A stretch of DNA of 56,773 bases. It comes from Pirellulaceae bacterium (GTDB lineage Bacteria > Planctomycetota > Planctomycetia > Pirellulales > Pirellulaceae). The translations under genes were made by a program, and so were the position numbers. The stretch lies in assembly GCA_022448315.1 (NCBI GenBank), contig JAKVCA010000036.1, positions 1-56,773 on the forward strand. Reading direction: 5' to 3'. Below, one piece after another: positions 53,676-56,773 of the stretch. Position 1 is the first letter of the stretch. Each line of letters starts with the position of its first letter. The notes beneath the pieces are model-generated. The model was not told where the DNA came from, did not search any database, and was given only the letters and a program-made list of their open reading frames with translations.

Positions 53676-55103
53676 ATGAGCAATACTTCCCAGAAACCTT
53701 CGGCGACGCTCTCGCGGCGTCAGGTTTTACAGGCCGGCGCGCTGGGCCTTGGCGGTCTGAGCATGGGGGATGCCTTCCGTCTCCAGGCTCAGGCGAATAC
53801 GGGAAGTACCGTGCGAACTGGGGCTGAAGCGGATCCCGCGGTGATTTTGATCTGGTTGCCTGGCGGGCCCCCACATATGGAGATGTATGATCTCAAGCCG
53901 GAAGCTCCCAGTGAATATCGAGGCCTGCTCAATCCCATTTCGACCAACGTCAGTGGTATCGAGATTGGCGAATGGTTGCCGATGCACGCGAAGTATGCGG
54001 ATCGCTACACCTTGATTCGCTCGGTCGCCCACAAGTTTGCCGATCATGGAGGTGGGCACAAACGCTTCCTCACCGGTCGGCAACCCGCGACTCCCGTTGG
54101 GTTTGTCAATGACGCTCCCGCGGTCAGTTCAATCGTGGCGAAAAAACTCGAAGGACGGGATCGTGGGGTACCCAACTACGTGACCGGAGCGAACCGAGGT
54201 CGAGATGGCATCGACGTGTACAGTTTCGGGAGCGCGTACCTTGGACACGAAACGCATCCTTTTGTGGTCTCGGGAGACCCAAGCGAAGAAGGGTTTCAGA
54301 TCAAGAATCTCGGGATCACGTCTGAGATGTCGAGCCGGATTCAGGATCGACTGAGTCTGATGCAGGGCTTTGATCGGATGAAACGGGACTTGGAAGAAGA
54401 TCGTCAACTCGGAGCGATGGACAAGTTCCACGAGCGGGCTTTTCGACTCTTGACCAGTCCGCAAACCCGAGAAGCGTTTGATTTGACGCGTGAGCCCGAG
54501 TCCCTGCGCGAACGTTACGGTCATCACGCGTGGGGCTACCGTGCCTTGATGGCTCGCCGCCTGGTTGAGGCGGGCGTGACCTTTGTCACGATGGTGATGG
54601 AGAACCCTTACCAGTCAGGCGTCGATTGGATCAAGAACGGGACCTACAACTGGGATTCCCATGCGGTGAATTGTCACCTTTTTGACGACCTGAAGGCGAG
54701 GCTTCCGATTTACGATCAAGCGGTCACGGCGTTGATCGAGGATCTTTACCAACGGGGGCTCGATCGCCGCGTGATGTTGATCGTGACGGGTGAGTTTGGG
54801 CGAACACCGAAGATCAATCATCAAGTGGGGACGCAGACCGGCGTGTCGCAACCGGGGCGGGATCACTGGCCGCAGGCGATGAGCATGCTGGTGTGCGGAG
54901 GCGGGATGCGAACCGGGCAGGTGGTAGGGTCCACCAACTCACGCGGTGAGCATCCTCAAGAGCGACCATTGACTCCGAATGATCTTTGGGCGACCGTTTA
55001 TCGACACCTGGGGATCGATTGGAATGAATCTTTCCTTGATCATGCGGGTCGACCGATGCCCATTCTTCCCTTTGGCGAACCGATCACCGAAATTTCAGGT
55101 TGA
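53676..55103 (+). CDS. Exported DUF1501 protein
   Basis: Protein of 475 residues of the DUF1501 (sulfatase-like fold) family common in planctomycetes. The N terminus has a twin-arginine export motif, SRRQVLQAGALGLGG, so folding before export is expected. DUF1501 marks include LIWLPGGPPHMEMYDLKPEA, YTLIRSVAHKFADHGGGHKR, LMARRLVEAGVTFVTMVMEN, TGEFGRTPKIN and DLWATVYRHLGIDWN. The reaction is not established. The frame is open to 53553, but ATG 53676 starts the signal peptide and has AGGACG upstream. Its end overlaps the convergent CHAD gene by about 20 bases. It is separate from both DUF1549 genes, although such proteins are often encoded side by side. Confidence 0.9.
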   Translation: MSNTSQKPSATLSRRQVLQAGALGLGGLSMGDAFRLQAQANTGSTVRTGAEADPAVILIWLPGGPPHMEMYDLKPEAPSEYRGLLNPISTNVSGIEIGEWLPMHAKYADRYTLIRSVAHKFADHGGGHKRFLTGRQPATPVGFVNDAPAVSSIVAKKLEGRDRGVPNYVTGANRGRDGIDVYSFGSAYLGHETHPFVVSGDPSEEGFQIKNLGITSEMSSRIQDRLSLMQGFDRMKRDLEEDRQLGAMDKFHERAFRLLTSPQTREAFDLTREPESLRERYGHHAWGYRALMARRLVEAGVTFVTMVMENPYQSGVDWIKNGTYNWDSHAVNCHLFDDLKARLPIYDQAVTALIEDLYQRGLDRRVMLIVTGEFGRTPKINHQVGTQTGVSQPGRDHWPQAMSMLVCGGGMRTGQVVGSTNSRGEHPQERPLTPNDLWATVYRHLGIDWNESFLDHAGRPMPILPFGEPITEISG

Positions 55104-56034
55104 TGTCAAAAGGTGCTGGCTGCACCGGACTGAGTTGGGTTTGAATCAAGCTTCGAGTGTTGGCGTAGAACTTGAGACGACGTTCAGGATTCCAGAATTC
55201 GATCCATCGCTCGAAAGCCAACTTGAGCATTCTCTTCTCTCGCCGCAACTGTTTTTTCAGTCCCTTTTTCTCTTGCGAGAGAATGGCGATTGCGGTCGCA
55301 TGGTCATTGATCGCACCGAGATGATTTTGGATCCGCTTGAGTTCTTTCAGGACCTCGGTGGTCGGCTTCTTGGGCAGGTCGGGTCTTGCCCATTCGAGCG
55401 TGTACCGCAGTTGTTTGGCCTGAATTCGATAATCATGAAGGGCGTTCAGATCGCGAATGGGTCGACGTCCACGATTTTCGAAGCGTTCTAGGGCATTTCG
55501 TACGGAAGGGATGTGGGTCGTTTTTTCGCGGGCCTGTTTCTTCGGCAGGGCTTTGGAACGAAGACGTTTCGAGAGGCGTTTGAGTTGCTTGCTCCACGGA
55601 GAGCCCTTCTTCCAGCGACCTTGCAGGCGGAGAAGTTTCTTTTGAGCTTTGCGACGTTGGGTGCGGAGTTGTTTCAGCAGGGACTTGTCACCCTGAGGCT
55701 GAGGTTGCTGACGTTCGATGAGAACGTCGAGATCGCGAGCCTGTCCGGCGGTTTTACGGATGAGTTTCAATCGTCGTTTCCATCGCCGATGATCTTTCCG
55801 TCGCACCGAGTCCGAAAACAGGTCGAGCGCTGCCGAGGCGCGTCGCGTTGCGACACGCAATTGATGGACGGATCGTTGGGGCGAGTCGACGGGACGATCG
55901 AGTTGTCGCAGATGTTGCTTGACGAGTTGCAAAGACTGGGCGATCGCGTCTGAGCCGGTGGGCAGCGAAGCGGAGCGTGGGTCGAGCTGGAAATCGCGAG
56001 GTGGCATCCGTTCTCGGCCTTGGCGTGGAGACAT
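55084..56034 (-). CDS. CHAD domain protein
   Basis: Cytoplasmic helical protein of 316 residues. CHAD domains bind polyphosphate, often beside CYTH phosphatases. The family signs are the opening helix with HQLRVATRRASAALDLF, the QARDLDVLIERQQ helix, and the NALHDYRIQAKQLRYTLEW stretch, with many conserved Arg, Lys and His residues that suit an anionic polymer. Strong basic content (runs of KR and RKAQKKLLRL) supports this. ATG 56007 is an alternative start. The 3' end overlaps the convergent DUF1501 gene. Confidence 0.9.
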   Translation of the reverse strand: MSPRQGRERMPPRDFQLDPRSASLPTGSDAIAQSLQLVKQHLRQLDRPVDSPQRSVHQLRVATRRASAALDLFSDSVRRKDHRRWKRRLKLIRKTAGQARDLDVLIERQQPQPQGDKSLLKQLRTQRRKAQKKLLRLQGRWKKGSPWSKQLKRLSKRLRSKALPKKQAREKTTHIPSVRNALERFENRGRRPIRDLNALHDYRIQAKQLRYTLEWARPDLPKKPTTEVLKELKRIQNHLGAINDHATAIAILSQEKKGLKKQLRREKRMLKLAFERWIEFWNPERRLKFYANTRSLIQTQLSPVQPAPFDINLKFR

Positions 56035-56375: not shown

Positions 56376-56449
56376 GGCGGCATAGCTCAGCTGGTTAGAG
56401 CAGCGGAATCATAATCCGCGTGTCGGGGGTTCGAGTCCCTCTGCCGCTA
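56376..56449 (+). tRNA. tRNA with CAT anticodon (elongator Met, or Ile2)
   Basis: A full 74-base cloverleaf can be drawn: acceptor GGCGGCA/TGCCGCT (first pair G-U), D arm GCTC/GAGC, anticodon arm GCGGA/TCCGC with loop ATCATAA (anticodon CAT at 56410-56412), T arm GGGGG/CCCTC with TTCGAGT. The CCA end is not encoded. The acceptor pairs fully, unlike initiator tRNA, so it is elongator methionine or the lysidine-modified isoleucine tRNA; the sequence alone cannot settle which. The 3' half is also the end of the opposite-strand integrase gene. Confidence 0.93.
56409..56449. mobile_element. Likely attachment-site core at the tRNA 3' end
   Basis: The last 41 bases of the tRNA gene are also the final codons of the integrase (QIAAEGLEPPTRGL) with its stop codon over the anticodon loop. 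Such overlap is the usual mark of an attachment site used by a tyrosine recombinase. The exact core and the second copy lie outside the window. Confidence 0.75.
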
Positions 56450-56773
56450 TTTGACGGTTTGGCATAACGTCGCAAATATTCGCATACCCCGGAAAAACCG
56501 GGGTTTTTTCATGCGCTAAGGGAATCGCTTGCGACGCCTTACCACCCCCTGCGTGCATGTGCTGCGCCGCTTTTTGCGCCACCTTGTCCCTCGAGGTTTC
56601 TAATGGCTCGCATGCGGCGACCAAGGCTCTCTCGAAATCAGCGTCGGTGGTCATCAGGTAATGCTTCATGGCAACCTGAGTCGTATTTCCCAGCCAGTTC
56701 GTCACCACATGGATCGGGTGATGCTGCATGAGCTCGGTTTCCCGGCTCGCTCGCAGATTCTGGAAAAGCTTGG
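56409..56773 (-). CDS. Tyrosine recombinase (phage-type integrase), C-terminal part
   Basis: Partial gene: the frame runs off the right edge and only the last 120 or so residues are visible. NLRASRETELM holds the second catalytic Arg, NWLGN supplies the Trp that takes the place of the second His, and AMKHYLM contains the nucleophilic Tyr. Then follow about 80 residues without known motifs, ending in AAEGLEPPTRGL, a C-terminal tail typical of integrases whose gene ends inside a tRNA gene. An ATG at 56729 is internal, not the start. The element it belongs to lies to the right. Confidence 0.9.
   Translation of the reverse strand, partial: KLFQNLRASRETELMQHHPIHVVTNWLGNTTQVAMKHYLMTTDADFERALVAACEPLETSRDKVAQKAAQHMHAGGGKASQAIPLAHEKTPVFPGYANICDVMPNRQIAAEGLEPPTRGL
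56486..56509 (+). terminator. Intrinsic terminator of the tRNA gene, inside the integrase frame
   Basis: CCCCGG and CCGGGG pair around AAAAA and run into six Ts, 37 bases after the tRNA end. The same bases encode the EKTPVFPGYA stretch of the integrase on the other strand. Confidence 0.88.

Follow-up and report, generated by a model that had tools for sequence, protein, structure and literature searches.

The window that was analysed, a stretch of 56,773 nucleotides, corresponds to the entire contig C57 in an assembly of a Pirellulaceae bacterium (G000) that comprises 126 contigs and 5.03 Mb. It ends with a tRNA gene into which an integrase gene runs on the opposite strand. This arrangement raises the question of where the chromosome ends and a mobile element begins, and whether the last codons of the integrase belong to the element or to its host. 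The tRNA gene with a CAT anticodon that had been annotated at the end of the window was verified as a single gene by ARAGORN and Rfam. It is intact, and on the basis of sequence features we take it to encode an elongator tRNA-Met. Downstream of its 3′-end the contig continues for 324 bp and then stops inside the integrase gene, the 5′-part of which is lost. The TGA stop codon of the integrase indeed lies over the anticodon loop, at tRNA index 34–36. It had also been stated that the last 13 residues are encoded by the complement of the tRNA; this holds fully for 12 codons of the tail IAAEGLEPPTRGL, whereas the 13th codon from the end (Ile, 56448–56450) has two of its three bases within the tRNA. 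The features are compiled in Table 1.

Table 1. Features at the right end of the window, with predicted features marked as such.
Feature	Position	Strand	Basis
tRNA gene, CAT anticodon, integration target	56376..56449	+	ARAGORN, Rfam
Tyrosine integrase, C-terminal 120 codons	56409..56771	-	open frame, homology to relatives
Integrase TGA stop, antisense to the anticodon loop	56409..56411	-	sequence; location on the host side of the exchange predicted from relatives
Last six integrase codons (PPTRGL), predicted to be host-encoded	56412..56429	-	inferred from the repeats of relatives
Predicted attachment core (T-loop to tRNA 3′-end)	56430..56449	+	homology to G065, G047, G067, G093, G018
Terminator-like hairpin and T run, within the integrase gene in antisense	56486..56504	+	sequence

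On the chromosomal side the neighbour of the tRNA gene encodes a CHAD-domain protein (55087–56034). DNA resembling positions 54006–55085 of the window also precedes the same tRNA in G017. In the assemblies G000, G007, G014, G017, G032 and G068 the 3′-side of the tRNA-Met gene lies at most 500 bp from a contig end.

By itself the 120-aa fragment did not match any Pfam family, and the frame is called an integrase because it is homologous to genes of relatives. Matches were found in 77 of 98 relatives, the best two by E-value having identities of 57% and 54%, and the gene of the relative with 54% identity matches PF00589 above the cut-off. In a tree of short integrase pieces, the inner branches of which were weak, the window was joined to L023 at 0.72 and belonged to a group of 18 members recovered at 0.92. 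The search for other tyrosine recombinases in the same assembly yielded two PF00589 matches (C56 and C37), neither of them at a contig end.

In other genomes, integrases related to that of the window also terminate in a tRNA-Met of this kind (L063, L064, L065, L067, L095), and thus the annotated left boundary of an element integrated in the tRNA gene at the end of the window is supported. A far end of the element was not found in this assembly, in which the contig ends inside the integrase gene: neither the 23-mer of the tRNA 3′-half nor the 20-bp core had a second copy in the 5.03 Mb when up to three mismatches were allowed, and a model of the C-terminal domain described below had no match. 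The cargo that had been expected past the end of the window is likewise missing from the assembly. A second tRNA 3′-end, as the initial annotation had anticipated for an integrated element, is thus missing from an assembly that cuts the element at the contig end, but an empty site does exist for a sister element. This is a 16.0-kb element at the tRNA-Glu of G076, which has an unoccupied counterpart in G092 of the same genus; the rebuilt G076 junction aligned with G092 contiguously over 1656 bp (76%), without an integrase match. For the tRNA-Val element of G093 an empty site was sought in G077, where the flank was not found.

The truncated gene and the absence of a far end from the assembly would also fit a dead integrase remnant instead of an element, and such remnants do exist in relatives, e.g., as a second copy in G018. 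Yet the frame is open over all 120 codons and can be aligned with those of the relatives along its full length, and the contig of G017 likewise ends just past this tRNA, in an integrase. Contig breaks at this position, as observed in the window and in G017, are expected when cells with and without the element are mixed. It is thus unlikely that the window ends in a remnant.

The ends of integrase genes were surveyed in a sample of 88 distinct integrases, which came from relatives, two named genome records and one viral contig and represent a part of all matches. A stop codon was present within the stretch examined in 86 cases, and in 55 of these 86 closed frames it was located inside an antisense tRNA, which is more than expected by chance. 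The 55 cases comprised twelve tRNA identities and all three reading frames, the frame counts being biased toward one frame because about half of the sample had been chosen for a match reaching the tail of the window integrase. Six further integrases ended near a tRNA, and two of them read through the whole tRNA. When the 55 tails were sorted by simple patterns, 37 belonged to GxEP, 13 to RTx and three to DSN, while two were unclear. Of the 55 stop codons, 53 lay to the host side of the T-loop region, as calculated from the survey (exceptions L013 and L026).

The position of the exchange was deduced from direct repeats in the relatives. The core repeats beside family integrases with a called tRNA started at index 53–62 and reached the tRNA 3′-end. 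Their lengths were 14–25 bp, the shortest being that of L245 (14 bp), with the exception of one repeat of 44 bp in L158, which is longer because it extends beyond the tRNA. G065, which has the same tRNA-Met as the window, carries a 24-bp repeat (index 55–78) with copies 16.9 kb apart, and G047, which has the integrase nearest to that of the window, a 25-bp repeat (index 54–78) with a spacing of 6.7 kb. The respective values were 22 bp, index 54–75 and 9.8 kb for G093, and 23 bp, index 55–77 and 12.8 kb for G018; further family cores at tRNAs for Glu, Ala, Leu, Ile, Gln and Val also started at index 53–62. The element's own C-terminal exon was found at the other end, 2.6–20.9 kb away. Because the exchanged block begins at the T-loop, the stop codon and about the last six residues of the integrated integrase are host DNA. 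By homology, the last six residues and the stop codon of the window integrase would be host-encoded, and the far end of its element would carry the original exon. The core of the window may possibly begin one base earlier than listed in Table 1 and extend a few bases beyond the tRNA.

This differs from the initial annotation, according to which the exchange takes place at the anticodon loop, so that the tRNA 3′-half belongs entirely to the element and the same 41 bases restore the tRNA and complete the integrase, the end of which would be equal in both forms. Displaced fragments from index 29–33, which are present in G081, G073, G020 and G030, agree with such an exchange, and anticodon-centred sites are described as generally common in the part of the Islander report concerned (PMC4383910). 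In the window, however, the 41-base repeat could not be confirmed, as the assembly has no second copy and the contig ends shortly after the tRNA, and the repeats of the relatives start at index 53–62 and not at 34, including that of G065 at the same tRNA-Met. Among the relatives of the window's integrase family a repeat starting at the anticodon loop was not encountered, and the integrase of G081, where a 44-bp repeat starts at index 33, is of a different type without a match to that of the window. The completion of the integrase by element DNA is likewise unsupported, because in the relatives the exchange starts at the T-loop and the tail and stop are host DNA. An exchange at the anticodon loop is thus improbable for the window, and the T-loop is preferred as its starting point. 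Fragments from index 33 had been considered as the family repeat and were dropped, as shorter repeats flank the true family integrases; G020:C133 was also dropped as a comparison locus, its genes looking proteobacterial by eye. The G081 locus (L057, G081:C42, 6517–14028), a 7.5-kb element located at tRNA-Met, encodes this other tyrosine integrase and a family A DNA polymerase and carries the 44-bp repeat; a match to the domain described below lies beside it. In L062 (G073:C178, 7238–7277) a solitary 5′-half of a tRNA-Met (index 1–40) is followed by unrelated DNA.

What the exchange removes from the integrase became apparent at the far ends of the elements. In the integrated form in the relatives, the integrase body crosses the core into the host tRNA, the antisense strand of which provides a short tail and a stop codon, while a C-terminal domain, separated from an integrase body, remains at the element's far end. 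This domain, here named AWP, consists of a linker (SGAESGA) and a helical hairpin that bears the motif DxDLaxvvxAWPxLxxxxRaxILxIV. At 13 junctions that had been found without a domain model, ten of the joined tails shared the domain in frame. The other three did not: in G047 the domain is out of frame and the integrase itself is broken, in G072 it is out of frame with stops, and in G065, at the same tRNA-Met, the core repeat is present but a match to the AWP domain was not obtained. The ten tails were used to build the AWP model, which matched in 57 of the 98 relatives; 39 of the 41 matched frames in the fetched loci had no detected integrase body. Over 64 regions, 14 integrase/domain pairs with a core repeat were found, and 12 of these were in frame without a stop, the same ten tails from which the model was built being among them. 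The model added two in-frame pairs (L159+244 and L245), so that of the four core pairs outside model building two were in frame and two were not. G018 was judged from its earlier junction, as the automated pairing had taken a neighbouring out-of-frame repeat. Several further matches gave different results: in L172 the domain is in frame, but the repeat is not the core, in L151 a non-core repeat is out of frame, and for L162 and the second match in L184 no repeat of 12 bp was found.

In Pfam no fitting family was found for the AWP domain, one member reaching an E-value of 0.08 to DUF4031. Among 44 AWP sequences the differences at codon positions 1, 2 and 3 were 0.49, 0.40 and 0.60, respectively, and the lower degree of change at position 2 indicates that the domain is a protein feature. 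To judge by eye, some of the linker is present in two reading frames and so resembles a signal at the level of the DNA. AWP matches also close frames outside this integrase family (L229 1–310; L230 8391–9857; L234 2024–3547), and thus the domain may occur more widely.

Genes in which the integrase body and the domain are still joined were found in viral contigs. Among 35 viral contigs carrying this integrase, eight, which represent five distinct proteins, contained the body and the domain in one open gene without a tRNA at that place, while the remaining 27 had no fused domain match. The L257 gene contains the tRNA-Glu core 53–73 (20/21), and that of L259, in which the domain match is weak (E 2e-3), the tRNA-Val core 54–74 (21/21). 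Twelve viral loci were tested for a core; L254, L260, L273 and L263 had none, and in L266 and L268 it comprised only 13 bp. Also among the viral contigs, one integrase ended in a tRNA-Val at index 34 and another read through a whole tRNA-Ser. It is not proven that the viral contigs with fused genes represent free genomes. In G067 a second integrase, the N-terminal part of which looks broken, lies head-to-tail at the far core and reads via the core into the domain of the first element. This fused frame was unmatched in phage and plasmid collections, and its own peptides were unmatched in the viral contigs. When viral contigs were scanned with the tRNA-Met core pattern, none of the 80 matches listed was accompanied by a family integrase or the domain. 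Fused frames are also carried by L228 and L229, and in L243 a fused stretch was recognised by eye. L228 and L229 had been considered as circular forms, which was rejected in the absence of a terminal overlap and in view of their other genes, which by eye look chromosomal.

Taken together, the tRNA-Met of the window is probably occupied by an element of a Planctomycetes tyrosine integrase family, with the core from the T-loop to the tRNA 3′-end inside the integrase gene, so that integration swaps the C-terminus. A location of the core within the integrase frame was observed in relatives as well as two viral contigs, and the swap in relatives, with 12 of 14 pairs in frame; for the window both are predicted from this homology. 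Apparently, the C-terminal swap is spread widely in the family. In a circular or free element, the frame would continue through the core into the AWP domain, yielding a longer protein, and this full-length protein would be the integrating form.

The loss of the domain might change, redirect or lower the activity of the integrase and help the element to stay integrated, in analogy to the Myxococcus phage Mx8. In Mx8, attP is located in the integrase gene, and integration turns an end of 112 residues into one of 13 residues, and the resulting protein is less active (PMC4701971). The altered integrase is reported to be less active or to have a changed specificity (PMC6070905, PMC4701971), and the arrangement was described as a molecular switch (PMC6070905). 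It is tempting to speculate, as a tentative extension, that the whole Planctomycetes integrase family has a detachable C-terminal domain that is removed by integration, with a host tRNA of any identity serving as terminal exon, so that the free form integrates and the integrated form stays. A serious rival, somewhat doubtful but clearly possible, accepts the swap but grants it no function: attP within the gene would simply be compact packing, and the AWP domain would be dispensable. Several members without a detected domain (G065 and the 27 viral loci) are in line with this, as is the AlphaFold model of L257, in which the integrase fold is predicted with confidence and the catalytic fold appears complete without the domain. 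A long unstructured stretch (364–461) separates this fold from two predicted helices (463–474 and 477–492; block pLDDT 65–87). In contrast, a dispensable domain would not be expected to recur in frame whichever of the three antisense frames of the tRNA is used, or to change less at codon position 2.

The junction has further features at the DNA level. The hairpin listed in Table 1 probably terminates the tRNA transcript. Terminator-like hairpins were present at nine of 60 tRNA–integrase junctions of relatives versus eight of 1200 control pieces, and in view of this excess the elements may supply the tRNA with a new terminator. On the integrase side, a GC-rich motif at 56551–56567 encodes AAQ..AQ in the protein, and repeats resembling it are present near the far end of L172, L169 being also concerned. 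Perhaps these GC-rich motifs are arm-type integrase sites.

Comparison with known systems delimits what is new. In its layout the family resembles Mx8 in that attP lies inside the integrase gene and the C-terminus is replaced on integration. It differs in that it comprises many elements of another phylum, uses tRNAs of at least twelve identities in three antisense frames, and shares a C-terminal domain that has no Pfam match. Like the islands treated by Islander, the elements have a tyrosine integrase, a restored tRNA and a displaced 3′-fragment at the far end (PMC4383910), but here the integrase gene spans the core. Streptococcal ICEs in rumA differ by their serine integrase and a protein-coding target. 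In the integration-dependent immunity of mycobacteriophages, integration truncates a phage protein with attP inside its gene; the protein concerned is the repressor, unlike the integrase here. According to PMC4701971, very few elements are known in which the attachment site lies inside the integrase gene, and the Islander report notes genes crossing attP only for some integrases, e.g., those of Mx8 and SSV (PMC4383910). A search of the literature outside subscription papers yielded no report of such an arrangement for Planctomycetes. Integrases that cross attP are thus already known, and what is apparently new is their recurrence across a Planctomycetes family.

For the element of the window, the T-loop replaces the anticodon loop as the predicted boundary. 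The layout also explains odd annotations, i.e., protein tails derived from the antisense strand of tRNAs (GLEPPT, RTHNP, DSN) and short domain frames without a body. As it recurs in a common Planctomycetes integrase family, it offers natural replicates across tRNA genes and reading frames, and with so many of them the switching of an integrase by integration becomes directly testable.
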